A stretch of 64,000 nt of DNA from Curvibacter microcysteis (GTDB lineage Bacteria > Pseudomonadota > Gammaproteobacteria > Burkholderiales > Burkholderiaceae_C). The translations under genes were made by a program, and so were the position numbers. Every line of letters begins with the position of its first letter. The stretch's first letter is position 1. Positions 47,623-61,800 of the stretch are shown here, one piece after another. Location of the stretch: assembly GCF_028649455.1 (NCBI RefSeq), contig NZ_JAQSIO010000002.1:558001-622000 (forward strand), given 5' to 3'. The notes under the pieces were generated by a model that was not told where the DNA came from, searched no databases, and saw nothing but the letters and a program-made list of their open reading frames with translations.

Positions 47623-48558
47623 GTGAACAGTCTCCCGGACAACGAAGACCTGCGTGTCTTCACCGTGGTGGTTCGCAAGTCCAGCTTTGCCGCTGCGGCG
47701 GAGGAGCTGGGCAGCTCGCCCGCCTATGTCAGCAAGCGCATCCGCCTGCTCGAGCAGGTGCTGGGTGTGCGCCTGCTGCACCGCACCACGCGCCGCGTGG
47801 CGGTGACCGAGGACGGCGAGCGCGTGTTCCACTGGGCCCAGCGCGTGCTGGACGATGTGGACCACCTGATGCAAGAGGTGGCGGTCACCCGCCAAACGCC
47901 GCGCGGCTCGCTGCGCATCAGCAGCAGCTTTGGTTTTGGCCGCCAGGTGGTGGCGCCCCTGGTGTCGCAGTTGGTGGAGCGCTACCCCGGCCTGCAGGTG
48001 CGCTTTGAGGTGTTTGACCGCCTGGTCGATGTGGCCAGCGAAGGCTTTGACCTGGACGTGCGCGTGGGCGACGACATCGCCCCGCACCTCATCGCCCGCC
48101 GACTGGCCGACAACCACCGCATCCTGTGCGCCGCACCCGCTTACCTGCAGCGCCGGGGCACGCCGCGCCACCTGCAGGACCTGAGCCAGCACGACTGCCT
48201 GGTCATCAAAGAGCGCGACCACCCTTTTGGGGTCTGGCGCCTGCACGCGGGTGCGCAGGAGGACACGGTCAAGGTCACGGGTCCACTGTCGTCCAACCAC
48301 GGCGAGATCGTGGTGCGCTGGGCGCTGGACGGGCGTGGCGTGCTGCTGCGCTCCATTTGGGACGTGGCGCCCTGGCTGCAAAGCGGCGAACTGGTGCAGG
48401 TGCTGCCCGAATGGCGCCAGGAGGCCAACATCTGGGCCGTCTACCCCTCGCGCCTGAGCAACTCGGCCAAGGTGCGGGTGTGTGTGGAATTTTTGCAGGC
48501 GCAGTTGGCGCCGCTGGACCCGGGTCTGGCCCGGGCCAGCGCCGCGCCCGGCGCCTGA
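47623..48558 (+). CDS. LysR-family transcriptional regulator
   Basis: LysR regulator of 311 aa, starting at GTG 47623 (MNSLPDNEDLRVFT). The helix-turn-helix FAAAAEELGSSPAYVSKRIR is at about residues 22-42, followed by LLEQVLGVRLLHRTTRRVAV. The effector domain includes RQTPRGSLRISSSFGFGRQV, the form common in the group of LysR proteins near DmlR (D-malate utilisation). It is divergent from the 2-hydroxyacid dehydrogenase gene. The gap is AT-rich around 47565-47615 and has TGAATTCA, but I found no clear T-N11-A palindrome. Regulation of the neighbour is by analogy. Confidence 0.9.
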   Translation: MNSLPDNEDLRVFTVVVRKSSFAAAAEELGSSPAYVSKRIRLLEQVLGVRLLHRTTRRVAVTEDGERVFHWAQRVLDDVDHLMQEVAVTRQTPRGSLRISSSFGFGRQVVAPLVSQLVERYPGLQVRFEVFDRLVDVASEGFDLDVRVGDDIAPHLIARRLADNHRILCAAPAYLQRRGTPRHLQDLSQHDCLVIKERDHPFGVWRLHAGAQEDTVKVTGPLSSNHGEIVVRWALDGRGVLLRSIWDVAPWLQSGELVQVLPEWRQEANIWAVYPSRLSNSAKVRVCVEFLQAQLAPLDPGLARASAAPGA

Positions 48559-48562
48559 CCCA

Positions 48563-49579
48563 TCAGGGCATGGGGTGGTGCCCACCTCGGGCCGGGGCTT
48601 TCAGGTGGTTTTGGCCCCAGTAGGCCAGCGCCGCCTTGCCCTGGATGTTCAGCTTGCCATAGACGCTGTGCAGTTGGTTGCGCACCGTGGCGGGTGAGTT
48701 GCCTTGCTCCCTCGCGATTTCTTTGTAGCTCAGACCCTGCGCCGCCAGGGCCGCCACCCGTTGCTCGCTGGCGGTCAATTCGGCATGGCCTTGCAGGCGT
48801 TCCAACCGAAAGCGAAGCACGTCGCCACAGCGCTCCAGGCGGGCCGTGATCCGGCGTCCCTTGTAACGGTCCTGCGGGCTGTTCAGCAAGGGGTTCAACA
48901 AGGGGGGCGGCAGGCTGACCCCAGGGAATTCAGGCCACTCCAGTGCCAACCAGTCGCGCGCCTGCGGCGTGGCCACGATGATGTGGCCGCTGAGGTCGGT
49001 GATCAACTCGCAAGACGGGCTGCTGGCTCCCGTGTCCTGGTGGGTGGCCCATTTGTCGGCCAGGGTCATGGCGTTCAGGATGTGAGGCAAGGTCTGGTCG
49101 GCCAAAGCCACCTCGCTTTGCAGGTAGGCGCGCTTGGCCTGCGCGCGCCACAGCGACACCAGGGCAAAGTGGTGCCCGGTGCGCTGCGTGTGCAGCATGG
49201 CGTGGCGGGTCTCAAACAAGGCCGCGTAGTCGCGCAGGCGTTGGTTGGCGATGCCCGTCACATCCTGCGCGAAGGTCTGCCCGGGGCGGTCCATGGCCCG
49301 TTGGATCAGGCGGTCCTGGCTGCTCACCCGGCCTTCAGGGGTCAGTCGCTCACTGGTCACCTGGGCGAGCCGGTAGCGGATTTTCTCGATCCCGTTGCCG
49401 TAGGAGAGGCAGGCATTGAACCGCATGTCCTGGGATTCAAAGAGGCTCATCGAGTAGATGGCGGCCGAGTCAAAGTGCATGTGCGTGCGCAGCTGGCGCA
49501 AGGCCTGTTGGCCCAGGGCATCGGCGCGGGCCACGCTGGCATCGTGGTACAGGTCGAGTAGAAAAGGCGTGAGTTTCAT
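48563..49579 (-). CDS. LuxR-type transcriptional regulator
   Basis: Protein of 338 aa. The C-terminal 60 residues are a LuxR helix-turn-helix: LTASEQRVAALAAQGLSYKE, then IAREQGNSPATVRNQLHSVY and GKLNIQGKAAL. The first 250 residues are not a phosphoacceptor domain; they resemble a GAF/PAS-like sensor (FDSAAIYSMSLFESQDMRFN) with a possible small PAS around ELITDLSGHIIVATPQARDW. The frame opens at 49603, but ATG 49579 (MKLTPFLLDL) is the likely start. It is 68 bp after the caspase gene and on the same strand, so it may be the last gene of that transcriptional run and could regulate it; this is inference. Confidence 0.85.
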   Translation of the reverse strand: MKLTPFLLDLYHDASVARADALGQQALRQLRTHMHFDSAAIYSMSLFESQDMRFNACLSYGNGIEKIRYRLAQVTSERLTPEGRVSSQDRLIQRAMDRPGQTFAQDVTGIANQRLRDYAALFETRHAMLHTQRTGHHFALVSLWRAQAKRAYLQSEVALADQTLPHILNAMTLADKWATHQDTGASSPSCELITDLSGHIIVATPQARDWLALEWPEFPGVSLPPPLLNPLLNSPQDRYKGRRITARLERCGDVLRFRLERLQGHAELTASEQRVAALAAQGLSYKEIAREQGNSPATVRNQLHSVYGKLNIQGKAALAYWGQNHLKAPARGGHHPMP

Positions 49580-49647
49580 GCAGTTCCAGGTTCTGGATGG
49601 CATCCGATGGGCGCAGGCGTTCTAAGAACCGCTCACTGGGCAAGGGC

Positions 49648-52600
49648 TCAGCGTGCTTTGGGCCGCCGCGCGAGCGCAAAGTCGTCCAAGCCGCCAGGGG
49701 GCGCGATCAGCCTGGGCGTTTGGCGACCTTGGGTCAGCGCCGGTACCCGGGTCGAGACCCAGGCATCCAGCCCTTTGTAGGTGACCTGGCCCACGCTGTA
49801 GGGGTCGGCTTTCCAGGCATCGCCCAGCCCTTCCAGCAAGGCATGCGTGAAGGCCCCATGGCGACCGGGGGCGTATTCCCAGCTCAACTGGTCGCTGCGG
49901 CTGCTGGCGAAGACCAGCACCTGGCTGTCCGGTCGGGCCAGTTCGCTGTTGAGGGCGTCCCCATTGCTCAGCCGCACGCCGCCCAGCCCGCCCGACAAGG
50001 CCGGCTGCCCCGCATGGCAGGTGTCAATGAAGAACACCGCCCGGCTGCCGCCGCCGCGCAGGTTGAGCGACAGCAAGGTGTCCTGAATGGCCTTGTAGGG
50101 CACGCCGGTGTCGGGCAGTTGCTTGAGCCGCACATCGTGCGAGCCAAAGTAGTAGCGGTGGTCCTCGCCCAGGGTGAAGCCGTGGCCGGCCAAAAACAGC
50201 ATCCCCACATCGCCCTCGGCCACTTGGGACTGCAACCACTGCAGGCCATTGAGGATGGCGTCGCGTCCCGCCCCCTCGTTGGTCAGCACCCGGGCTTCCA
50301 CGTCGCGGTAGCCCAGGCCGCGCTGGCGCAGCAGGGTGTCGGCAAAGGAGCGTGCATCGGCGTGCGCGTAGCTCAAGGCCGGCACCTCAGCGTCCTGGAA
50401 AGTGGACACCCCCACGGCCAGCAGCCACAGCTTGGGCCGCTGCGCCGCTTCTCCAGCCGGTGTGGCCTCTGCCGCGGACCGGCTGCGGGCTTCCTGGCCC
50501 TCCGCAGCGCCTGGCAAGGTCAGGCTCAACGGCAAGCTGCTGCCATGGCGGTTGTCCGCCTGCAGGCGCAAGCTGGTGTCGTTGGGGCCCAGGTCCAGGC
50601 GCAGTTGACGCTGGCCCTGGCTGTCGTCGCTGCTGCTCCAGCGCGTGGCGGCCAGGGCCTGGCCGTTGACCCAGACGCGCAGGCGGCGCATGGGGGCGTC
50701 GGCATGGCTGCGCACCCGCAGCGTCACCTGCACCTCGCGGCCGCCCAGGCGCTGTGGGCCCGTCACCAGCTCCAGCACCGGGGGCAGGGCTTGCGTCACC
50801 GGCGCACGGGGCTCTTGCCGCTGCGCGGACTGGTTGGCCACTTCCAGCGCTTGGTCTTCATCCAGGGTGCGCAGCACCTGGTTGATCACGTCGGGGCGGT
50901 GGTAGCGCTCGCGGAATTGCTGCAGCGGAAAGAAGTCGCTCTCCTGGTCTTTCGCGCGGTTCAGGTGCCAGCCGGCCAGCGTGTCGGCGCCTGCTGCGGC
51001 GTCAAAATAACCGGAGGGCGTCCACAGCAGCCAACGCTGCCGGTCGGGGGGCACGTACAAGGCCAGCAGTTCTTGTCCGTCTGACAGGCGGTACCAGCGC
51101 ACGGTGCCGTCCCCCAGGGCGGCCACCAAGAGGCGGCCGCTGCGGTCGATGTTCACGCCCCAGGCCGGGGTGTGCAGCGCGCGCATCCACAGCCTTCGGC
51201 CGTTTGTGTCCAGCCGGTACAGCCCCAGCTGCGTTCCCAGCACAAAGCCGCTGCGGTCGGGCAATTCGGCCAGGGCGTTGCTGGGCTCATTGCGGGGCCC
51301 GCCCGGCAATTCGGGGCGCAGGTTCAGCAGCTGTCCGTTCAAGGTGGGCTGGGTGTCGTTGAGCCAGCGGGTCACGCCCAACTGGTTTTGTGAGGGGGCC
51401 AGGCCTTGGGGCAAGGTGCCTGCCCGTAGTTGCCGTCGAGCGAGGTCAAACACCAGCGGCTGGCCGCCTGCCAGTTCGTAGCCGAACTGCACGGCCTGGG
51501 CGCTGGGGTCCAGTCGCAAGCTGTCCAGGCAGCAACTGCCCCGCAAGTCGGCCCCGGGCGCTGGGCTCAGGGCCGTCCAACTGCCGGTTTCCTGGAGCCG
51601 ACCCCATTGGCCATCGCCAAAGCCCAGCAGCCAGCGGCCCCCAGCCAGGGGGCGAACGGCCAAGGCGGTGCTGGCGCCAGTGGGGCGGTTGCTCAGCACC
51701 TGGCCGGTGTCGCGCGACCACACCCGGGCCAGCGTGCGGCCGTCCACACTCCATTGCCCCACGCCCAGCAGCTGGCGACCGTCGGCACTCCAGGCCACCC
51801 GGTCCAGCGAGGCCCAGGGGGCCAGGGCCCCCAGGTTCAGCTGGGCCAGCTTGGCCGGGAACTGGTTGACCAGCCCGACGGTGTCCAGCACCAGCTGGTG
51901 CTGCAGGGTGTAGCTGTCACGCACTTCCACGACGGCGCTGCCCGGTGTGGGCGCAGGTCCCCCCGCGCTGGCGGGGTGCCGGGTGTAGCCCACCGCCAAG
52001 GAGCGCCCATCGGGCGAAAACGCCAGTGTGTTGGGGTAGCTGGGCATCTTGGACACGGCCTGCACCCGCAGGGGCACGCCCACGATCTGGCGACCGCGCA
52101 GCTCCAGCAGGTAAGTGTTCAGCTGCCCGATCGAGCTGGCCAGTGCCAGTCGGCCATCCTGGGCCCAGGTGACTTTGGTGGTGACCGTCGGCGTTTGCGG
52201 GTCCAGCGGCGCCGTCAATTGCAGCGGCGGGGTCTCCGTGACCAGGCTGTACACCAGCACCTGAGCCCGGTCGCTGGTGGTGCCCACCGCCAACCAGCGG
52301 CCATCCGGGCTGAAGGCCAGATCCGACACCACGCCGGGCAGGCCCGCCAGGCGCTGGCGCATCACGCCGCTGCGCCGGTCAAACAGATACACCGACGCGC
52401 CGCCGTCCCAACTGAGGCCGGTGGCGCCGCCCGTGGCAATCAGCTCGCCGTCCGAGGACAGGGCCACGGCCAACAAGCGGCCCTCCAGCCCCTCATCCAG
52501 CGGGGGGCGAATCACCCGGAGCAGCCGGCCTTCGGGCAATTGCCACACGCGCACGGTCTTGTCGTCGCCCGCCGTCACGGCCCAGCGTCCGCTGGGCTCG

Positions 52601-53559
52601 GTGTCCAGGGCCCAAATCGCCCCTTGGTGCCCGCCGCTGTCCAGGCGCAGAAAAGGTTGGTCCGGCGGGCCTTCACCCCGTCGCAGGCTGGTGGCCGAAG
52701 GCGCCGCGCCCGCCGTCGGGCGGGCCGAGGCCAGCACCGGGTTGGCGCTGGGGTTCGGGCGGGCGCCGGGCTGGGCCGAGCCCGCATCCAGCCGCAGGTC
52801 GCCGACCAAGCCGCTGACCAGCCAGGGCCGCTGTTTGCCCTGGGTGTTGGCGTCGACCTCGCCCTGGGTTTGTTCTGCCAACTCCTTGAGCGAGAGCCGG
52901 GTGTTCAGCAGGTTGCGGTTGAAGGCCAGGGCGAAGGGACTGTGCTCACCCTCGCCATCGCGGGCGGTTTGGCCTGGGCTGGTGGAATACAGCTGCAAGC
53001 TGCCGCGCACGTAGGGCGGCTCGGCAAACCCTTGGCTTCCTTGGCCGCGCGAGGGCAGGCTTCGGCAGGCGTCCATGACCATCACGGACACCCGGGCGTT
53101 GGCCCCTTGCAAAACCGACTGCAGGTAGTTGATGGACAAGCCCCGGGTCTTCAACTGAACCGCGCTCACCTCTTTGGGGAACTGGTCCACCGGGATCAGG
53201 TAGTTGTTGCCGTCCACTTCCAGGCCATGCCCGGCGTAATAGACCAGGGCCAGATCGGCTTTTTGGGCGCGGCGCGCGAAGTCCTCCACGTCCTGGTTCA
53301 TTTGTTGCAGGTTGCGGTCCTTCACCAGCGTGACCGCAAAGCCCAGCCGATCCAGGCTGGTGGCGATCAGCTCGGCGTCACGCACCGGGTTTTTCAGGGC
53401 CACCACCGGCGCGTAGGCCGCATTGCCGATGACCAGTGCCACTTTTCGCCCGGTGGTCTCTGCCGCGTGCACCCCGGACAGGGCCCAGAGGTGGAGCACC
53501 AGCACCAGGGCCAAGCCAGCCCACGCCCCCCACCCAAACCGTCGATGCCACTGCTTCAT
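49648..53559 (-). CDS. Exported protein with two caspase (peptidase C14) domains flanking a WD40-like region
   Basis: Protein of 1303 aa. A signal peptide or anchor (GAWAGLALVLVLHLWALSGV) precedes a first caspase domain (about 37-260): VALVIGNAAYAPV, YYAGHGLEVDG with His111, and VMVMDACRS with Cys165. A Pro/Ala-rich linker leads to a WD40-type region (about 310-890) with units such as WALDTEPSGRWAVTAGDDKT and LAFSPDGRWLAVGTTSDR. A beta-sandwich-like stretch (about 920-1010) follows, then a second caspase domain (about 1040-1290): LLAVGVSTFQDAEVP, FLAGHGFTLGEDH with His1126, and VFFIDTCHAG with Cys1181. Both dyads are complete, so both could be active proteases. The frame opens at a TTG (53577); ATG 53559 is better. 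It follows the sigma, SulP and YbjN-like genes on the same strand. Confidence 0.9.
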   Translation of the reverse strand: MKQWHRRFGWGAWAGLALVLVLHLWALSGVHAAETTGRKVALVIGNAAYAPVVALKNPVRDAELIATSLDRLGFAVTLVKDRNLQQMNQDVEDFARRAQKADLALVYYAGHGLEVDGNNYLIPVDQFPKEVSAVQLKTRGLSINYLQSVLQGANARVSVMVMDACRSLPSRGQGSQGFAEPPYVRGSLQLYSTSPGQTARDGEGEHSPFALAFNRNLLNTRLSLKELAEQTQGEVDANTQGKQRPWLVSGLVGDLRLDAGSAQPGARPNPSANPVLASARPTAGAAPSATSLRRGEGPPDQPFLRLDSGGHQGAIWALDTEPSGRWAVTAGDDKTVRVWQLPEGRLLRVIRPPLDEGLEGRLLAVALSSDGELIATGGATGLSWDGGASVYLFDRRSGVMRQRLAGLPGVVSDLAFSPDGRWLAVGTTSDRAQVLVYSLVTETPPLQLTAPLDPQTPTVTTKVTWAQDGRLALASSIGQLNTYLLELRGRQIVGVPLRVQAVSKMPSYPNTLAFSPDGRSLAVGYTRHPASAGGPAPTPGSAVVEVRDSYTLQHQLVLDTVGLVNQFPAKLAQLNLGALAPWASLDRVAWSADGRQLLGVGQWSVDGRTLARVWSRDTGQVLSNRPTGASTALAVRPLAGGRWLLGFGDGQWGRLQETGSWTALSPAPGADLRGSCCLDSLRLDPSAQAVQFGYELAGGQPLVFDLARRQLRAGTLPQGLAPSQNQLGVTRWLNDTQPTLNGQLLNLRPELPGGPRNEPSNALAELPDRSGFVLGTQLGLYRLDTNGRRLWMRALHTPAWGVNIDRSGRLLVAALGDGTVRWYRLSDGQELLALYVPPDRQRWLLWTPSGYFDAAAGADTLAGWHLNRAKDQESDFFPLQQFRERYHRPDVINQVLRTLDEDQALEVANQSAQRQEPRAPVTQALPPVLELVTGPQRLGGREVQVTLRVRSHADAPMRRLRVWVNGQALAATRWSSSDDSQGQRQLRLDLGPNDTSLRLQADNRHGSSLPLSLTLPGAAEGQEARSRSAAEATPAGEAAQRPKLWLLAVGVSTFQDAEVPALSYAHADARSFADTLLRQRGLGYRDVEARVLTNEGAGRDAILNGLQWLQSQVAEGDVGMLFLAGHGFTLGEDHRYYFGSHDVRLKQLPDTGVPYKAIQDTLLSLNLRGGGSRAVFFIDTCHAGQPALSGGLGGVRLSNGDALNSELARPDSQVLVFASSRSDQLSWEYAPGRHGAFTHALLEGLGDAWKADPYSVGQVTYKGLDAWVSTRVPALTQGRQTPRLIAPPGGLDDFALARRPKAR

Positions 53560-53707
53560 ATGAAAAAATAGAAACAAATAGTAAATAAATGCGAGTTTAG
53601 CCAGCGCACGGATTGATCAAGCACCTGCATGTGCAAAGAAGTACTCCGACACCCGGCCAACAGGCCCGGTGTGGCGTTCTGGCTGCAAAGCGCTGACGGG
53701 GCCGTGT

Positions 53708-54178
53708 TCAGTGGCAGGACGCGCGTGGTTGTTGCTGTTCTTTGCAGGCTCGGGCAATGCACTGCACGAGGTGCTGGAGGGCCTTCAAGTTGCGCGCCAT
53801 GACCGCCTTCAGCAGGGCCGGGTCTGGCGCTTGGTCGCTGCCCGCCAGAAAGCACTCGATGGTGGCACTCAGGCGGTAGCCTTCTTCGTCCTCGCTGCGG
53901 GGGATCAGGTAAGCCTTGGCGGCCTTGCAAGTGCGGTTGGCTTCGTTGACCACATTCAGCGCGCTGACCAGGTCCAGGCCCGTGCTTTGCTGGTTGGCAA
54001 AGCTGGGGTAGACCAGCATCAGGTACTCGGGGTCTTTGTCCGCGTCCAGGCGGACATACAGGCTGCCGAGGTCGGGGTGGCGAAAAATGACGTCTTGGTC
54101 CTCGTCGATGTGGGCCATCAGGCCCAGTTCTTCTTGGATCAGCGTTTGGTAGCGTTCTGCCAGGGTATTGGGGCGCAT
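53708..54178 (-). CDS. YbjN-like / type III chaperone-fold protein
   Basis: Soluble protein of 156 aa with an alpha/beta pattern like the YbjN and CesT/Tir chaperone fold: RYQTLIQEELGLMAHIDEDQ, FRHPDLGSLYVRLDADKDPE, YLMLVYPSF, then the helix DLVSALNVVNEANRTCKAAK and the strand YRLSATIECFLAG. YbjN affects envelope stress and motility in enterobacteria, though resemblance here is at fold level and not proven. The ATG at 54178 has a very strong AAGGAGG site 5 nt upstream, and the leader holds a 9-bp hairpin (54208-54242), so expression is probably tuned separately from the SulP gene upstream. The caspase gene begins 148 bp downstream on the same strand. Confidence 0.68.
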   Translation of the reverse strand: MRPNTLAERYQTLIQEELGLMAHIDEDQDVIFRHPDLGSLYVRLDADKDPEYLMLVYPSFANQQSTGLDLVSALNVVNEANRTCKAAKAYLIPRSEDEEGYRLSATIECFLAGSDQAPDPALLKAVMARNLKALQHLVQCIARACKEQQQPRASCH

Positions 54179-54207
54179 GGGAACCTCCTTGTATGCGGAT
54201 GGGTGGG

Positions 54208-54242
54208 GTCAGCAGCGCGCACCGATGTGGCGGGCTGCTGAC
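54208..54242. promoter_or_regulatory. Hairpin in the leader of the YbjN-like gene
   Basis: GTCAGCAGC (54208-54216) is the exact reverse complement of GCTGCTGAC (54234-54242) across a 17-nt loop. It lies between the SulP stop (54322) and the strong ribosome site (CCTCCTT, 54184-54190) of the next gene. It could be an attenuator, an mRNA-processing site, or an end for the upstream transcript. Confidence 0.45.
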
Positions 54243-54321
54243 TCCCTATTCGCCATCCGGCGCAAAAGGTTGGTTGCTGGGCAGAACTTTTTTTGCAGGT
54301 CAGGCCGGCGCCCGGCCGCCA

Positions 54322-55965
54322 TCAAGCCTGCAGGCGCTCGCCCAGCAGCGCCGTGACGGACTCGGGCGTGGCCGTGCTGCTCACGGTCACCGGGTGCTGC
54401 TGGGGGTTCCAGCGCTTCAGGGCTGCGTGCAGTTGGTGGGCGGCCTGAAAGTCCAGGTGGCTGACCTGATCCAGGTGCACTCGCCAGCCTCGCACGGGCA
54501 GGTCGGCGCGCACCGACTGAACGGCCTGAGAGATGCCCGCCAACAGCGCGGGCGTGGCTTGAAACCCCCAGGCCCCTGTCAAGCGCAGGTGCAGTTCGCC
54601 CTCGCGCCAGCTCAGCCGCCAGTGGCGGGGCTGACGGTGCAGGCCCAGCCCGATCCAGCTCAGGACCGCGCCCGCCAGCAGGCCATAGACCGAGTTGTGC
54701 AGCAGCAAGCCCACGCAGACCACCAGCAGCAACAACAACAGGGCGCGACCCAGCACGGGCTGGGGACGCTGGGTCTGCAGGGTCCAGCGCAGCAAATCGG
54801 TGAGCACCCCGGTCAGCATGTCCAGCGCCACCAGCACCACGCAGCCGGCCAGCACGGCCCGCGGCAGCTCGGCCACCCCGGGCAGGGCAAAAGCCAGGAT
54901 GACGGCCAAGGTCAGGCCATGGAACAAGGGGGCTCGGCGGCCCAGCTTGTTCTGGACCTGCAGCATTTGGCTGCGGCTGAACGAGATGGCCACCGGCGGC
55001 AGGCACAGCGCACCACACAGCAGGGTGGCCAGACCGCTCACGCCCAGCTCTCGGTCCATGTTGATGGGGGTTTCCTGGGCTTTGAAACTGTTCAGGGCGC
55101 CCAGGGTGTCGGCCATGCACACGATGCCCAGGCCCGCACCGCCCAGCACCACGGTCAGCAGCCAGGCCGGCTCTTGCAGCAGCCCCAGCAGATGGCCTGC
55201 CGGGGGCCACTGGACCAGCCCGGCTTGCTCCAGCGTCACGCTGCCCAGGGTTCGGCACAGCCCCGGATGGGGCATGAAACGCAGGCACAGCGCGTAGGCC
55301 AACCAACCGACCGCCAGGCCCACCAGCATGCTGGCGGGTGACCAGCGCTTGCGCTGTGGAGGGCCCTTCTCCGTCCAGTATTTGAAGCCCAGGCTGCAGC
55401 CCACCACCAAAGCCGCCACCCCGAGGCCACGCCAGTTGCCCTCGGTGGCGCAGCTGGCCAGCTTCTGGATCTCGCTGCTGATCATGCTCACGCCGCCGGC
55501 GAACAAGGTCCCGCCCACCACCAATTGGGCCAGCAGGCTGCTGACCCGGCTGCCCCAGCGCAAGGCGGCCACCAGCAGCTGGACCAGGCCGGCCATCAGC
55601 ACCAGGCAGGCCCCCAGCAGCACCACACCTTGCAAGCCCAGGGTGTGGACACTGGTGTAGTTCCAGCCCACGCTGAGCAGCCAGCCATACACCAGCATGG
55701 GGGTGGCCCGTGGGCCCGCCAAATGCTTGGGCACCTGGGACAGCAGCTGCGCGATGAACACCGCCACCATCACCGCCGCGACGCAGCGCAAGCTGGTCAG
55801 GCTGACCCAGTTGGGCACCCCGGCTGCCAGCTTGGCGGGGGTGGCCGAACTGGCCATCGACAGGTATTCATTGAAAAACACCACGGCGCTGATGGCGCCC
55901 ATCAGCACGTCCGGCCCCAAAGTGGCCGTGGGCAGGCGTGGCCGGGTGCTTGCCAGCCCCTTCAT
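54322..55965 (-). CDS. SulP-family membrane transporter with C-terminal STAS domain
   Basis: Integral membrane protein of 547 aa. Some 10-12 hydrophobic helices occupy residues 20-430, with SulP-type features such as GWLLSVGWNYTSVHTLGLQG, GLGIVCMADTLGALNSFKAQ, the block SRSQMLQVQNKLGRRAPLFHG (the SGS/SRS region before the last helices), and a C-terminal STAS domain (about 455-547) with LRLTGAWGFQATPALLAG and LDQVSHLDFQAAHQLHAAL. SulP proteins carry anions such as sulfate, bicarbonate or C4-dicarboxylates; this one is divergent and I cannot name the substrate. The frame opens at a GTG (55980), but ATG 55965 overlaps the upstream stop in ATGA, so it is coupled to the small membrane gene. A transporter inside a sigma/anti-sigma unit is unusual. 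Confidence 0.8.
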   Translation of the reverse strand: MKGLASTRPRLPTATLGPDVLMGAISAVVFFNEYLSMASSATPAKLAAGVPNWVSLTSLRCVAAVMVAVFIAQLLSQVPKHLAGPRATPMLVYGWLLSVGWNYTSVHTLGLQGVVLLGACLVLMAGLVQLLVAALRWGSRVSSLLAQLVVGGTLFAGGVSMISSEIQKLASCATEGNWRGLGVAALVVGCSLGFKYWTEKGPPQRKRWSPASMLVGLAVGWLAYALCLRFMPHPGLCRTLGSVTLEQAGLVQWPPAGHLLGLLQEPAWLLTVVLGGAGLGIVCMADTLGALNSFKAQETPINMDRELGVSGLATLLCGALCLPPVAISFSRSQMLQVQNKLGRRAPLFHGLTLAVILAFALPGVAELPRAVLAGCVVLVALDMLTGVLTDLLRWTLQTQRPQPVLGRALLLLLLVVCVGLLLHNSVYGLLAGAVLSWIGLGLHRQPRHWRLSWREGELHLRLTGAWGFQATPALLAGISQAVQSVRADLPVRGWRVHLDQVSHLDFQAAHQLHAALKRWNPQQHPVTVSSTATPESVTALLGERLQA

Positions 55966-56345
55966 GGCTGAACCGTGCACAGCGGGTTGCTCTGCACGGC
56001 GTCCGCCAGCTCGCCCAGGCTGGCGCGCACCGCATCCGGCCCCTGACCGGGGACGTTCAACTCAAAGGCGCCGCGCTCATTGGGGCCTTGCACGATGTTG
56101 GCGTTGAAGTTCAGCATCCAGCGGCGCAGGTCGCGCACCGTGGCCCCCGGTGCAAAGGCCACCTCCAACGCGCCACAGGCGCTGTCGCCGCCGCCTCGGG
56201 TGCCACCGTCCGCACTGCGCGCGGGCGGGCTCTGCCAGGCGGCCATCAGCCCCAAGGCCACCCCCATCTGCACCATCAGCAGCATCAAGACCACACTGAC
56301 CCGCTGGCCGCACCAAGCGGCGGCTTTCTCCAACCATTGCTTCAT
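55962..56345 (-). CDS. Small membrane-anchored periplasmic protein, paralogue of the anti-sigma C-terminal half
   Basis: Protein of 127 aa with one membrane helix (about 16-37, SVVLMLLMVQMGVALGLMAA) and a periplasmic domain from residue 50. That domain aligns with the C-terminal half of the next gene product: both begin at a cysteine (C57 here, C143 there), share the pattern LRRWMLNFNANIVQGPNERG against LNRALLQNGWQVLSGPDSLG, then SLGELADAVQSNPLC against SLGDLAQQLEANPSC. The cysteines are 65 and 64 residues apart, so a disulfide is plausible. It thus looks like the anti-sigma protein without its cytoplasmic part. It overlaps the genes on both sides by ATGA. The start ATG is at 56345. Confidence 0.75.
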   Translation of the reverse strand: MKQWLEKAAAWCGQRVSVVLMLLMVQMGVALGLMAAWQSPPARSADGGTRGGGDSACGALEVAFAPGATVRDLRRWMLNFNANIVQGPNERGAFELNVPGQGPDAVRASLGELADAVQSNPLCTVQP

Positions 56346-57004
56346 TGTTTTTCCTTGTCGGGGTGCGCCGGGGCACCGGGGCATGAGGGGTTGGCTTCCA
56401 GCTGTTGGGCCAGGTCCCCCAGGCTGTGTTGCAGGGTCGGCAGATCGCCACCGGCTTGCAAGCCATAGCGGCCAAGGCTGTCCGGTCCGCTGAGGACTTG
56501 CCAGCCGTTTTGCAGCAGCGCCCGATTCAGCTCTGCCTGCGTGAGGTCACCGCGCCAGCGCACCAACCAGGGGGCGCAGTGGGCGGCCGAGCCGCGTTCC
56601 AGACCTTGTTCAGCCCCGGTCGGCGGGAGCGGGCTGGCGGGCCACAACAGCACCAGCAAGGCCAAGGACTGCAGCGCCAGCACGGAGCCCGTGGCCAGGC
56701 TGTGCCGGTGCATGAATTGGGCCAGGGCTTCGCGCCAGCGGCGCCGCCTTGGCAGGCTCACGGCGCCGGGGGCGCCCAGGCGCTGCGCAAAGGCTTGACG
56801 CGCGGCGTCTTGGCCGGCTTCAAATTGCTGCTCGGCCTTGAGTTGCGCCAAGCCGCCCAGCACCGCCAGGCGGCTGGGCGAGGGCTGGCCCGCTGCGGCG
56901 TCTTGCAACTGGGCTTGTTCTGTGGCGCTCAGGGGGCGGTAAAGCGCCTCGACCAGCAAGTCGTCCTCGGGGCGCAGCGGGGGCTCGTGGTCCGGCAGGC
57001 TCAT
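56342..57004 (-). CDS. Anti-sigma-factor-like single-pass membrane protein
   Basis: Protein of 220 aa. Residues 1-100 are cytoplasmic, acidic at first (LPDHEPPLRPEDDLLVEALY) and basic near the membrane (SLPRRRRWREALAQFMHR). One helix spans about 101-121 (SLATGSVLALQSLALLVLLW), and a periplasmic domain of about 100 residues follows, holding the C143/C208 pair shared with the next protein. The place directly after a sigma factor gene, overlapping it by ATGA, and the topology are those of membrane anti-sigma factors; no zinc HxxxCxxC motif is present. The C-terminal domain type, with IVxGP..G.Y-like core, occurs in some anti-sigma proteins as I remember them. Anti-sigma function is inferred, not shown. 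Confidence 0.75.
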   Translation of the reverse strand: MSLPDHEPPLRPEDDLLVEALYRPLSATEQAQLQDAAAGQPSPSRLAVLGGLAQLKAEQQFEAGQDAARQAFAQRLGAPGAVSLPRRRRWREALAQFMHRHSLATGSVLALQSLALLVLLWPASPLPPTGAEQGLERGSAAHCAPWLVRWRGDLTQAELNRALLQNGWQVLSGPDSLGRYGLQAGGDLPTLQHSLGDLAQQLEANPSCPGAPAHPDKEKQ

Positions 57005-57633
57005 GGCGACACGCTTTGGGTGGGTGCTTGGCTCTTCATGCACAGCTGCAGCTTCTTGATGGCCGAGAACATGCGGCTTTTGACGGTCTCCACCTTGCCC
57101 AGGCCCAGGCGCTGGGCGGTCTCGGCTTGCGACTCGTCAGCCAAGCGCCCTTGCACCACGGAACGCAGCGGGGCGCTCAATTGGTTCAGGCAGTGGCTCA
57201 ACAGCTGCAATTGGTGTTCCAACTCCCAGGCCTCGGGTGGGCGATTTTGATGCGATTTATACAGCTCGCGTTGCAGCCAGGCTTCTCCCTGGGGCGTGTC
57301 CATCAATTCATCAATCGATACCTTGGCCAGGTCTTTGGCTTGCTTGCGCCATGAATCGATCAGTTTGCGGGGGGCTATTTGCCGTGCCAAATACGTCGTC
57401 AGCGCTTGTGCATAAGCGGTGCTGTGGGGCAGGGCATCACATTCAAACCCTTTGATTTTGCCGTCTACCAAATCGGCCAAGGTCTGGCTGATGGCGTCTT
57501 CGGCGTCGTCGCCTGTCACGCTGGGGTATTCAAAGTGAAATCGGCTCAGGGCGTGGCGCCGCAATCCGTCCACAAATGAATCACGGGCGGCGCTGGCGCG
57601 GCGCAAATGATCAAGAAACAAAGGGATGGACAT
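57001..57633 (-). CDS. RNA polymerase sigma factor, ECF-like
   Basis: Sigma-70-family protein of 210 aa, first gene of the minus-strand cluster. Region 2 is around residues 20-105 (TGDDAEDAISQTLADLVDGK, then TYLARQIAPRKLIDSWRKQA), and region 4 around 150-200: LNQLSAPLRSVVQGRLADES, then QAETAQRLGLGKVETVKSRM as the helix-turn-helix. The stop overlaps the next start in ATGA. The ATG at 57633 (MSIPLFLDHL) has no strong ribosome site, only a C-rich leader that carries a hairpin (57670-57687); an in-frame GTG at 57681 lies inside that hairpin. It probably directs transcription of its own cluster; a matching promoter could not be fixed by eye. Confidence 0.85.
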   Translation of the reverse strand: MSIPLFLDHLRRASAARDSFVDGLRRHALSRFHFEYPSVTGDDAEDAISQTLADLVDGKIKGFECDALPHSTAYAQALTTYLARQIAPRKLIDSWRKQAKDLAKVSIDELMDTPQGEAWLQRELYKSHQNRPPEAWELEHQLQLLSHCLNQLSAPLRSVVQGRLADESQAETAQRLGLGKVETVKSRMFSAIKKLQLCMKSQAPTQSVSP

Positions 57634-57669
57634 GGGGCAACAGACGGGGCCGAGGGGCTGAATCCAGGT

Positions 57670-57687
57670 CCGTCTGAACACAGACGG
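57670..57687. promoter_or_regulatory. Hairpin in the leader of the sigma gene
   Basis: CCGTCTG-AACA-CAGACGG is a perfect 7-bp stem with a 4-nt loop, 37-54 bp upstream of the sigma start. A further CAGACGG copy lies at 57641-57647, next to the start codon, so the left arm could pair with either copy. That gives a possible two-state leader in front of a gene with a weak ribosome site, or a protein-binding repeat. Confidence 0.45.
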
Positions 57688-57765
57688 TGGATTAAAAATG
57701 CCAAGCGGGTGATTTTAGGGGGCGCCTCGGACGGAAGTAGGCGCAGCCGTGCGGTATCTCTGCCA

Positions 57766-57784
57766 CATAGAACACTGTTCTATG
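57766..57784. promoter_or_regulatory. Perfect 19-bp palindrome between divergent sigma and zinc-ribbon clusters
   Basis: CATAGAACA-C-TGTTCTATG is a perfect 9+1+9 inverted repeat. A third half-site GAACA follows at 57785-57789, giving GAACA-c-TGTTC-TATG-GAACA. It lies 133 bp from the sigma start and 148 bp from the zinc-ribbon start, placed to control both. A reading as a LexA-like site (CTGT-N8-ACAC) is possible but one base short of the usual CTGT-N8-ACAG. Confidence 0.6.
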
Positions 57785-57931
57785 GAACACCCCGTGGGCC
57801 TTGCTTAACATCCGCGCGAGTCAAGGCGGATGTGGTGTTTTGCATTCCGATTCGTCTTGTTTTTTCATTGTGGCCCCAGCGCCGCAGGGGTGGGCGTCCA
57901 CCTCTGACCCCAGACGAATACCGGAGGTTTT

Positions 57932-59329
<1,398 letters not shown>

Positions 59330-59397
59330 TCGCGGGGCCGGCGGCCCGTGCTTGATCTGATTTTTTGCCAATCACTGAATAAAAAAGAGGGAACACC

Positions 59398-60564
59398 ATG
59401 TCACACAACGAAACACGCGCCACGCCTGCGGCATCCAGCCTGATGGAGCTGCTGCTGCGCTCCGGCGAGGCCTTGCAGAACCGGCAGGCGCTGAGCACTT
59501 TGATCGTCACCGCCGTGGGAGCGGTGTTGCTGATCATGGCCTCGGCCAGCACGGGCCAAGGGGTGGTCATCGCGCTTGGGGGGCTGTTGGCCCTGGTGCT
59601 GGTGCACTCTGGTTTGTCGGCGGCGGGCATCCAGTTGATGGACCAGGCTCTGGGGGGCCAGCCCCGTCCCATGGCGGCGGCCTTGTTGGATGGTTTGTTC
59701 GCGGCAGGCAAGCTGCTGTGCCTGGCCTTGCTGGCGGGCCTGGGACTCGCTGTGGGCCTGCTGGTGTTGGCCGTGGCGTTGTTGCTGTGCAAGATCCCGG
59801 TGCTGGGCAGCTTGCTCATCACGGTGCTCCTGCCCGCCGGGGTGCTGACGGTGGCGTTTGTGTACGCCGCCTTGTACTTCTCGATGGCCATGGTGGGGCC
59901 CGCCGTGTGGTCGGGCTCGTCGATTCGCCATGCGGTGTCCACCTTGTACGTGTTGGCCACCCAGCGCCTGGTGCAAACCGCTTTGGGCGTGGTGCTGCAC
60001 ACCGTCTTGATGACCTTGATTTCGTCGATGCTGGTGGGCTTCATCAGCTTTGGCGTGCTGACCGTGGGCGGGATGAGCGCGGGCATTCTGGCCAGCAATA
60101 ACCTGCAGGGCTTTGGCATGCACATGCTCATGCGGGCGATGAGCGGCATGGGCGGTGACAACGGCCTGCTCCTGGGGGCCGGTTTTGGCTTGGGCATCTT
60201 GGGGGCTTTGGTGGCGGCCAGCCTGCTGTCCATGTTCATCCTGGGGCTGAACCGCTTGTTTTTGCACTTGACGGCCGAGCTGGACGTCTCCAGCGCCGAC
60301 GCGGGCCTGAGCGAGCAGATTCAACGCGCCAAGGAGCGCGCCCGCCAATTGCAAGAAGACGCCCGCCGCCGCGCTGCCGAAGCCCGCGAGCGCGCCGAGC
60401 AAGGCCGCCTGAACCCGGGCCCCACCAGCCCAGGGGCGCCCACTGCGGCGCCGCAAGTGGTGGCCACTTCCCCGGCACCGGCCGCCTTGAGCTGCCGCCA
60501 TTGCCAGGCGCCCGTCGAAGCGGGCGACCGTTTCTGCGAGAACTGCGGCCAATCTTTGGTCTGA
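59398..60564 (+). CDS. Polytopic membrane protein with C-terminal zinc ribbon
   Basis: Protein of 388 aa. Residues 30-290 hold about six hydrophobic helices (ALSTLIVTAVGAVLLIMASA; LCLALLAGLGLAVGLLVLAV; LLITVLLPAGVLTVAFVYAA; and GFGLGILGALVAASLLSMFI among them). A cytoplasmic coiled coil rich in Arg/Glu/Ala (about 305-340, QRAKERARQLQEDARRRAAE) leads to a Pro-rich linker and a final zinc ribbon (SCRHCQAPVEAGDRFCENCG). I recognise no transporter signature. The ATG at 59398 follows GAGGGAACACC. It is 68 bp after the first zinc-ribbon gene, and the third begins 12 bp after its stop, so all three are probably one operon. Confidence 0.82.
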   Translation: MSHNETRATPAASSLMELLLRSGEALQNRQALSTLIVTAVGAVLLIMASASTGQGVVIALGGLLALVLVHSGLSAAGIQLMDQALGGQPRPMAAALLDGLFAAGKLLCLALLAGLGLAVGLLVLAVALLLCKIPVLGSLLITVLLPAGVLTVAFVYAALYFSMAMVGPAVWSGSSIRHAVSTLYVLATQRLVQTALGVVLHTVLMTLISSMLVGFISFGVLTVGGMSAGILASNNLQGFGMHMLMRAMSGMGGDNGLLLGAGFGLGILGALVAASLLSMFILGLNRLFLHLTAELDVSSADAGLSEQIQRAKERARQLQEDARRRAAEARERAEQGRLNPGPTSPGAPTAAPQVVATSPAPAALSCRHCQAPVEAGDRFCENCGQSLV

Positions 60565-60576
60565 GTGAGGTCGCCG

Positions 60577-61800
60577 ATGAAACGCTTTTGCCATGCCTGT
60601 GGCACCGAACAAGCCCTGGACGCCACGTTTTGCGAAGAGTGCGGTGAAACCTTGCGGCCCCCGCGCTCGGCGGCTGGGGCCGCTGCGCAGATTGCCTCAG
60701 CCCCAGCCCCAGCCCCAAGCGCTGGCGCCCCCAGTGCCCGCCCGGGGCGCCAAAGGCGCCCATGGACCCCCAAGACCTTGGCGCTGGTTGCTGCTGCCGC
60801 CGTGTTGGTGCTGGGCGGCGGTGGCGCGGCCTGGTGGGCGCTGGCCTCCCGCGACGCCACCGAGGCCGAACTGCGCGAGGGCCTGAAGGACTGGTTGGCC
60901 ACCGACGCCAAAAAGCAACTCAACCGCCCCTGCCTGAGCAACTTTGACTACGCCAAAAGCCCGGTTTACATCGACGCGGGCAACCAGCAGGCGGTGGATT
61001 GGTTGACCGCCTTGACCCAGGCTGAGCTGTACACAGGGCCTGATCCTGTGGTCCAGCAGGGCCTCTTTGGCGCGCGTTTGTTGCGCTACGAGAAGACGCC
61101 CAAGGCAGCGCAATTTGTCTCGGGTCGGCAGCTCTGCGCTGCCAGCACCTTGGGCTTGGAAAGCCTGAAATTTGACCCCAAGGCGGTGCTCAAGCAGGAG
61201 GGCCAGCGCATCCAGCCGGGCACGGCGCGCATCCTCTGGGCTGACCGTGCGGACTGGAGCCTGGTGGCGCCCTTCAAGTCCGAATTCGATGGGCAGTTCT
61301 CGACGGAAGAACGCGCCGTTCGCTGGATTGCACAAGACCAGGGCTGGCGGGCGCTGACCCAAGCCGAGCAAGAGGCTGCGCAAGCCAAGCTGCCCCGAGG
61401 CGGCGATCAGGGCCACCAGACCGACGCCGATGGGGTGTCCCTTTGGGGGCGCCTGAGCGGTCTGTTTTCGGGTTTGACGGGCAGCACCCCGGAGAGCGTC
61501 GCCGAGGCCGCCTTCCGGGCCCAGCAGGACTGTGACCCCAAGCGCTTCAGTGAGTACTTTCGGGAGCCTTCGATCACCCAAGAGGTCATGCAAACCCAAA
61601 TGACCATGTACTGCGCGATCCAGGCGCGCAGTGCTGACAAGGGCGACAAGATCGCCTCGCTCAAGTCCACCCGCGTGGGGGGCGCTGGCGACAAAGTGCG
61701 GGTGCGCTTGGACGTGACGTTCGCGAGCGGCAAGACGGACTCTCAGGTCCTCATCGTGGAGAAAGTCGACGGCCGCTGGTGGTCCCGGCTCAATCTCTGA
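60577..61800 (+). CDS. Membrane-anchored protein with N-terminal zinc ribbon
   Basis: Protein of 407 aa. It starts MKRFCHACGTEQALDATFCEECG, a zinc ribbon that mirrors the C-terminal one of the gene before. A basic Pro/Ala linker, one membrane helix (about 62-82, TLALVAAAAVLVLGGGGAAW) and a large extracytoplasmic domain follow; in it DWLATDAKKQLNRPCLSNFD, ILWADRADWSLVAPFKSEFD and a C-terminal DUF4878-like stretch (about 300-407, VAEAAFRAQQDCDPKRFSEY, ending VEKVDGRWWSRLNL) can be seen. The frame opens at GTG 60565, but ATG 60577, with GAGG upstream, starts cleanly at the ribbon. It is the third gene of the cluster. Confidence 0.82.
   Translation: MKRFCHACGTEQALDATFCEECGETLRPPRSAAGAAAQIASAPAPAPSAGAPSARPGRQRRPWTPKTLALVAAAAVLVLGGGGAAWWALASRDATEAELREGLKDWLATDAKKQLNRPCLSNFDYAKSPVYIDAGNQQAVDWLTALTQAELYTGPDPVVQQGLFGARLLRYEKTPKAAQFVSGRQLCAASTLGLESLKFDPKAVLKQEGQRIQPGTARILWADRADWSLVAPFKSEFDGQFSTEERAVRWIAQDQGWRALTQAEQEAAQAKLPRGGDQGHQTDADGVSLWGRLSGLFSGLTGSTPESVAEAAFRAQQDCDPKRFSEYFREPSITQEVMQTQMTMYCAIQARSADKGDKIASLKSTRVGGAGDKVRVRLDVTFASGKTDSQVLIVEKVDGRWWSRLNL

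Follow-up and report, generated by a model that had tools for sequence, protein, structure and literature searches.

In a 64,000-nucleotide stretch of the Curvibacter microcysteis genome (the window, to which all coordinates without a locus name refer), we found a gene cluster encoding a sigma factor, an anti-sigma-like membrane protein (AsfA), a smaller membrane protein sharing a domain with it (AsfB), a SulP-type anion transporter, a YbjN-fold protein and a caspase. The core of this cluster recurs in six genomes of two families, and is probably a real, conserved module for envelope-to-gene signalling. The six genes, from first to last, are:

57001..57633, minus strand: extracytoplasmic function (ECF)-type sigma factor, 210 amino acids (TIGR02937 5e-11 and Sigma70_r4_2 2.3e-5, both just below cut-off; a relative in genome G155 is above it)
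56342..57004, minus strand: AsfA, anti-sigma-like, with a cytoplasmic N-terminal part, one membrane helix (102-120) and a periplasmic domain that is propeptide-like and holds a Cys pair (from the ATGA overlap with sigma, hydropathy, the domain family and NCBIfam anti-sigma matches of relatives)
55962..56345, minus strand: AsfB, one membrane helix (18-36) and another copy of the propeptide-like domain, with the sigma-binding part absent (hydropathy, AlphaFold2)
54322..55965, minus strand: anion transporter of the SulP/SLC26 type, its STAS-like tail divergent, with invariant Cys 172 and 237 (Pfam 4.3e-11; clade support 97/95)
53708..54178, minus strand: YbjN-fold protein, only in two Curvibacter loci (AlphaFold2 and Foldseek to 6vu7 and 5fr7)
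49648..53559, minus strand: caspase-WD40-caspase protein, 1303 amino acids, signal-peptide-like N-terminus, both dyads intact (Pfam, hydropathy; split counterparts in loci L130 and L133)

Three ATGA overlaps, visible in the sequence, join the sigma, asfA, asfB and SulP genes, and intergenic gaps of 143 and 148 bases lie 5' of the YbjN-like and caspase genes, respectively. The caspase gene has an ATG start, with a TTG 18 bases upstream. An earlier note on this DNA had described a minus-strand run of six genes, 49648-57633, the first four joined by ATGA overlaps, with the SulP gene inside a sigma/anti-sigma unit; the sequence confirms the run, and the placement of SulP is supported.

Conservation of the gene cluster

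The same six genes are present in the same order in Curvibacter gracilis (genome G002, of the same genus as the window genome, G000), with identities to the window proteins of 56% for sigma, 48% for AsfA, 62% for AsfB, 45% for SulP, 44% for the YbjN-like protein and 63% for the caspase. The shared block covers about 48.6-61.8 kb of the window, from a LuxR-type gene to a zinc-ribbon gene, zr3 (see below), and the compared flanking genes outside these limits have no counterpart at the matching place. Within the genus, the cluster is found in two of nine genomes; in G008, there is only a weak, partial SulP match.

Contig scans with the window SulP alone gave no relative at first and only C. gracilis in a second scan. 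SulP-only searches of larger genome sets detected four genomes with E<=1.4e-36 among 399 of the family (next match 5.7e-14), a genome of another family, G650, among 349 of the order (6.4e-43), and G823 together with G650 among 120 of the latter's family. In a class search, the SulP profile matched 59 of 218 genomes, the best besides the window genome at 3.9e-28. Genes for an AsfB-like protein, SulP and a caspase occur together in all six genomes with the cluster, and those for sigma and AsfA in five of the six. The sixth locus, in G076, ends at a contig end and consists of the end of a (cut) caspase gene, asfB, SulP and then a gene for a CHASE2 protein. This CHASE2-domain protein is encoded directly 3' of SulP (L068 1344-2906, 5e-22) and is a possible alternative sensor. 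In G650, the sigma, asfA, asfB, SulP and caspase genes have the order and strand seen in the two Curvibacter genomes, without a YbjN-like gene. In G155 and G823, the cluster is split into divergent halves, with asfB, SulP and caspase on one strand and sigma and asfA on the other. The cluster is rare and patchy, being present in one of 17 genomes of the genus of G155.

In a tree with 15 other SulPs, the six cluster SulPs formed a single clade (support 97/95), those of G076 and G155 on long branches; row L003 was omitted from the tree, its locus being identical with L068. By contrast, the flanks examined at 14 ordinary SulP loci contain neither asf nor caspase genes. Five of these loci were order controls, scanned for asf, caspase and sigma; the other nine were the seven best class matches and the second SulPs of G000 and G002, whose flanks gave no match to asf, caspase, S8 protease, P1 (see below) or sigma (the L226 contig being only 6.2 kb long). 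Because the set falls in one SulP clade and two families, and is kept together though re-ordered, its recurrence appears not to be due to chance.

Linkage in relatives that keep the block, which the earlier note had expected of both the caspase and YbjN-like genes, holds for the caspase in all six loci (the G076 gene being cut by the contig end) and for the YbjN-like gene in two, both from Curvibacter. We therefore ruled out the YbjN-like protein as a core part of the system. The protein itself has no Pfam match at E<=0.1, and its profile gave a best value of 0.49 against PDB sequences; its AlphaFold2 model, built from two sequences, matched YbjN (6vu7) with E 4.5e-4, probability 1.00 and TM-scores of 0.54-0.63.

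AsfA, AsfB and the asf domain

AsfA and AsfB have a C-terminal domain in common (the asf domain). The gene for AsfA overlaps that for sigma, and the protein has a single membrane helix at residues 102-120. In AsfB, 17 residues precede the membrane helix predicted by hydropathy (18-36), and the helix of the AlphaFold2 model starts at residue 2. A stretch of 17 residues is too short to form a sigma-binding domain, so AsfB does not have the structure of an anti-sigma factor, and we ruled it out as a second one; it is instead a membrane-anchored copy of the AsfA periplasmic domain. Hence, the "anti-sigma pair" proposed previously stands only for AsfA, which is anti-sigma-like in that it adjoins sigma and has a single membrane helix. 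Anti-sigma models matched the N-terminal part of several asf relatives (L141, 1.3e-14; L130, 8.1e-8; the G650 AsfA, 0.0044), all under curated cut-offs.

A family search found the asf domain in 43 of 399 genomes. The count of asf places was 48, of which five are the cluster copies of G000, G002 and G076; G184:C113 and G280:C7 were left out, and a second G155 place sits on the same locus, L129. We examined 40 loci. In 37 of them, a same-strand protease gene follows within 6 kb, encoding an S8 protease in 25 cases and a caspase in 12. The distance from asf gene to protease gene is at most 0.65 kb, except at L158 (3.4 kb) and at L129, where the SulP gene of the G155 cluster intervenes. Loci L137, L146 and L160 have no same-strand downstream protease; L137 stops 118 bases beyond its asf gene, and a caspase at L160 is on the opposite strand. 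Nine of the downstream proteases, the weakest included, were compared with Pfam, and all scored above cut-off (six Peptidase_S8, three Peptidase_C14). A wider rule is apparent in the family (L129-L168): a sigma factor, an anti-sigma factor with a propeptide-like domain, and then an S8 protease or caspase, an arrangement broader than the SulP variant.

The Pfam family Fervidolysin_NPro-like (PF22148) was matched by 16 of 50 asf domains at E<=0.1 (best 3.2e-6); the window AsfB had no match to it. The AlphaFold2 model of AsfB, from two sequences only (mean predicted local distance difference test score, pLDDT, 67), consists of the membrane helix and a beta-alpha-beta-beta-alpha-beta domain with a pLDDT of about 80. 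On this family-level evidence, the asf domain resembles a subtilisin propeptide, and we refer to it as "propeptide-like", a propeptide function being putative. At least two Cys residues are found in 10 of 11 cluster asf domains, the exception being the G823 AsfA, as compared with two of 39 others.

Sigma factor, transporter and caspase

The window sigma factor scored slightly below cut-off for region 4 (24.4 bits against 25.7) and for TIGR02937 (42.5 against 42.9), and region 2 was not matched in the Pfam/NCBIfam scan. Among its relatives, the G155 protein is above cut-off for both region 4 and TIGR02937, the C. gracilis protein for region 4, and the G650 and G823 proteins for region 2. The G823 protein was missed by our own sigma profile and matched by Pfam region 2 (2.9e-7). 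A sigma-70 promoter scan of 48500-58300 found no promoter.

The window SulP matched Pfam Sulfate_transp (4.3e-11; 42.6 bits against a cut-off of 23.2). Searched alone against PDB, it matched nothing at E<=1; SLC26 chains were matched once a profile of the six cluster SulPs was used. Cys 172 and Cys 237 are present in all six, as compared with none of 13 and one of 12 controls that have a residue at these positions. Both presumably face the periplasm, given the SLC26 topology that we assume. The Cys pairs of SulP, AsfA and AsfB suggest disulfides, and perhaps a redox-sensitive surface. An acidic residue in transmembrane helix (TM) 8 (Asp; Glu in G076) and a Ser/Thr-Arg pair in TM10 are kept in all six cluster SulPs. 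The TM10 equivalence was seen in an alignment with prestin, and that of TM8 is our own reading, prestin having no acidic residue there. In AtSULTR4;1, the available text of PMC8298490 places Glu347 on TM8 in proton coupling, and Arg393 and Ser392 at the sulfate site. With these residues kept, transport by the cluster SulPs is likely to be possible.

The double caspase described in the earlier note is borne out: the window protein has two Peptidase_C14 matches (1.1e-52) with intact dyads, H110/C165 and H1125/C1181. Its N-terminus is a signal-peptide-like stretch, as judged by hydropathy only, so the caspase is probably exported to the periplasm, which fits proteolysis or signalling in the envelope better than a cytosolic suicide protease. 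The more distant cluster caspases have one caspase domain each, with Sel1 repeats above the Pfam cut-off in G650 and G823 and weaker ones in G155 and G076. Separate genes for a caspase (about 300 amino acids) and a WD40-caspase (about 1000 amino acids) stand in one row at L130 9791-16330 and L133 230-9114, and the 1303-amino-acid window protein looks like a fusion of two genes of this type.

A model for the cluster and its alternatives

From the gene association, the predicted topologies and the domain identities, we infer a circuit that involves sigma binding by AsfA, pairing of the asf domains with the caspase, a first-site cut and sensing by SulP. AsfA would hold sigma at the inner membrane. 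The periplasmic propeptide-like domains of AsfA and AsfB would pair with the exported caspase, as an inhibitor-like decoy and as a substrate. A change at SulP (its anion load or transport state, or a redox change in the Cys pairs of SulP, AsfB and AsfA) would free or activate the caspase, which would then make the initial cut in AsfA; sigma would next be set free by regulated intramembrane proteolysis and would raise expression of the operon. We hold the general form of this model tentatively, at somewhat less than an even chance: a circuit built on an ECF sigma factor, in which periplasmic proteolysis, linked to the caspase and with AsfB and SulP as the gate, releases AsfA. We consider rather unlikely its most specific form, in which the caspase is the site-1 protease and the propeptide-like domains sense the anion or thiol/disulfide state of SulP, a "transceptor", with AsfB as a removable plug on the caspase and AsfA as the substrate.

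Several points weigh against this circuit. A single transcript for all six genes is putative, and separate transcripts are possible given the gaps of 143 and 148 bases. The window AsfA matched no anti-sigma family in the Pfam/NCBIfam scan. The first Foldseek row for the AsfB model is the subtilisin inhibitor POIA1, but with E 0.12, and a second structure comparison (VIA) put subtilisin propeptides on top with Z 6.6, a level that can reflect a common arrangement. Comparison of the asf domain (48 sequences) with the N-terminal region of neighbouring S8 proteases (12 sequences) by hhalign showed no link, and the best match of the asf profile to PDB sequences had E 0.66. Propeptide domains are known to act on subtilisins, not on caspases. 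Lastly, the sensor role of SulP is drawn from gene linkage, and SulP may simply transport.

The protease may instead be the output. Sigma would then drive expression of the exported caspase, the AsfA and AsfB domains would fold, tether or restrain it, SulP and other products would be regulon cargo for anion uptake or export, and sigma would not be released by proteolysis. We regard this alternative as possible but lean against it. An S8 protease or caspase gene after the asf gene in 37 of 40 loci is what would be expected of inhibitor/enzyme pairs, and AsfB carries the propeptide-like domain without a sigma-binding part. SulP also keeps what we take, from the profile alignment and the presumed topology, to be the anion-site Arg, which corresponds to Arg393 of AtSULTR4;1 in the available text of PMC8298490. 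However, this leaves unexplained why a protein encoded beside sigma bears the domain of a protease partner.

We consider it improbable that the cluster serves in phage defence or programmed cell death, with the caspase doing the killing. A PADLOC caspase model matched with 3.6e-22, and the patchy presence of the cluster, in two of nine genomes of one genus and one of 17 of another, fits such a role. By contrast, the caspase N-terminus resembles an export signal, and the only other PADLOC match among the six proteins is a marginal one of BilA to AsfB (E 0.047). Cell death as an output, as raised in the earlier note, is unproven, and the probable export of the caspase suits envelope proteolysis or signalling better.

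Still less probable is a STAS partner switch, suggested previously, in which SulP, by binding AsfA with its STAS tail, would act as an anti-anti-sigma factor. Alignment shows a STAS-like tail in five of six cluster SulPs, with a Pfam STAS match above cut-off in G650 (3.1e-5) and under it in G823 (0.0034). On the other hand, the G076 SulP has no tail, and Pfam STAS had no match in the window, C. gracilis and G155 proteins. We placed the site by the motif that we take to mark anti-anti-sigma proteins, a phosphorylated Ser after Asp. The residues after this Asp are Phe-Gln in the window and Phe-Leu in C. gracilis, whereas the second position is Ser in G155 and G650 and Thr in G823; the site thus speaks against a switch only for the Curvibacter and G076 copies. 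None of ten neighbourhood proteins scanned matched a switch kinase or phosphatase family. We set the switch aside as the main mechanism on account of the tailless G076 protein and the Curvibacter residues, those of G155, G650 and G823 notwithstanding.

Finally, the view that the genes are neighbours by chance, or share a hotspot, and have no function in common would suit the patchy occurrence and the coming and going of the YbjN, LuxR, P1/P2 and zinc-ribbon genes, but hardly deserves credence with the core kept in six genomes of two families, the SulPs in one clade and none of the 14 control loci alike.

Accessory genes and a candidate operator

The view of the earlier note that the genes belong to one unit is supported, and the module is larger than stated there, with a LuxR gene, a dyad and three zinc-ribbon genes added. 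P2, a lipoprotein-like protein, and P1, a membrane protein, both without a Pfam match, flank the cluster in other genomes.

48563..49579, minus strand: LuxR-type helix-turn-helix protein, 3' of the caspase gene in both Curvibacter loci
57766..57784, no strand: perfect dyad CATAGAACACTGTTCTATG, with the sigma operon on one side and zr1 on the other
57932..59329, plus strand: zr1, double zinc-ribbon, one membrane helix (DZR 6e-9; C. gracilis homologue)
59398..60564, plus strand: zr2, multi-helix membrane protein with a C-terminal zinc ribbon (homologues adjoin the cluster in C. gracilis and G650)
60565..61800, plus strand: zr3, zinc-ribbon membrane protein (homologues in C. gracilis and G650)
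L058 1-2072, L129 12704-15270, L180 2470-5041 and L187 11897-14415: P2-P1 pair, beside four of the six clusters

With the LuxR gene counted, seven genes stand in a row on one strand. In C. gracilis, three tandem LuxR paralogues (L058 2267-5303) lie 3' of the caspase gene where the window has one; on the other flank are a glycosyltransferase gene, a fourth LuxR copy and then zr1-zr3. The palindrome CATAGAACNNTGTTCTATG at 57766-57784 is the only site with at most two mismatches in the 4.8 Mb window genome. C. gracilis has five dyad places, of which three (L058 2229, 13425 and 17060) are in the cluster; one of these is upstream of sigma, one upstream of P2, and one between the fourth LuxR gene and zr1. 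Of seven congeners without the cluster, six have no dyad and one has a two-mismatch site. A reversed control pattern gave one match in nine genomes, and 30 simulated sequences of 19 kb contained no dyad with at most three mismatches. The G650, G823, G155 and G076 loci have no dyad with at most four mismatches, and no LuxR homologue was found in them. As dyad and LuxR are both absent from these loci, it is a reasonable inference that the dyad is a candidate operator bound by the LuxR-type proteins. In Curvibacter, a LuxR-type protein would probably add a second control in this way.

The three zinc-ribbon membrane-type genes (57932-61800) are divergent from sigma. Homologues of zr2 and zr3 lie beside the cluster in G650, of the other family (L180 13468-17855), along with a DZR protein (3.4e-9) at the place matching zr1, the likeness there being one of domain and position. 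P2 and P1 flank the cluster in C. gracilis, G155, G650 and G823; in G823, they and a GDPD gene lie between the two halves. P1 was found in these four alone among 13 genomes searched, not in the window genome, G076 or the seven cluster-less congeners. The pair is accompanied by a GDPD enzyme in G155 (9e-17) and G823 (1.2e-12), and by a lipase-type protein in C. gracilis (Lipase_3 5.9e-6) with a homologue in G650. Relatives of P1 occur in 12 plasmid records. On a Salmonella plasmid, P1 is preceded by a P2 homologue; P2 was not recognised in the remaining three plasmid stretches. Sigma, sought on plasmids, had no match, and the four stretches gave none to the window sigma, AsfA, AsfB, SulP or caspase.

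Comparison with known systems

In agreement with the earlier note, we found no description of a system combining SulP, a propeptide-type anti-sigma factor and a caspase in the open literature, a scope with subscription papers mostly outside it; the available text of PMC7406223 and PMC8103513 contains nothing on such a set. Operons that join sigma factors and metacaspases are already known, and it is the SulP/propeptide version that is apparently undescribed. Operons encoding both a caspase homologue and a sigma-70 factor were reported in 2012 for Myxococcus, Anaeromyxobacter, Haliangium, Sorangium, Ralstonia and Fibrobacter (PMC3501461). The present cluster may be alike in this, its sigma and C14 genes standing in one row on the same strand, and the available text of that paper mentions no SulP or propeptide-like anti-sigma factor. 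ECF54 sigma factors likewise have protease neighbours, being linked to subtilases and caspase-like CHAT proteases, but are treated in the available part of the review as a case of proteolytic regulation without an anti-sigma factor (PMC8999054).

In the type III-E CRISPR system CASP, as set out in the available text of PMC10028731, the caspase-like Csx29 cleaves Csx30, an inhibitor of the ECF-like CASP-sigma, a precedent that we counted in favour of the proposed circuit. CASP is RNA-triggered and works with Cas7-11; the present cluster has membrane-anchored AsfA and AsfB, a probably exported caspase and SulP. As the PADLOC scan of the six proteins returned only the caspase and the marginal BilA match, the cluster is not a Csx29/Csx30/Cas7-11 system. 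RseA-type anti-sigma proteolysis is also recounted in part of that paper (PMC10028731). The cluster would resemble RseA/DegS/RseP in its anti-sigma-like membrane protein and in a first cut made outside the cytoplasm, and differs in protease class, propeptide-like domain and transporter. Cascades of the RseA/DegS/RseP type act on a membrane anti-sigma factor and make the first cut outside the cytoplasm.

The asf domain is like subtilisin propeptides, PF22148 and I9-type inhibitors such as POIA1 in predicted topology and family-level similarity, but it sits on a membrane anchor and, in AsfA, is joined to an anti-sigma-like part. The cluster SulPs share Sulfate_transp and the TM8 and TM10 residues with other SulP/SLC26 proteins, and differ from them in forming their own clade, in their two invariant Cys residues and in a weak or missing STAS domain. 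Bacterial caspases are common, and for most of them neither the natural trigger nor the substrate is known. The genes described here suggest both a controller for a caspase, in the sigma/anti-sigma pair, and a physical partner, in the propeptide-like domain, and offer a concrete model for many exported bacterial caspases and for a SulP gene in a sigma operon. If the transceptor/site-1 form of the model is true, this would be, to our knowledge, the first caspase in the regulated release of a membrane-held sigma factor, and the first SulP known to us to act as a signalling receptor for one.

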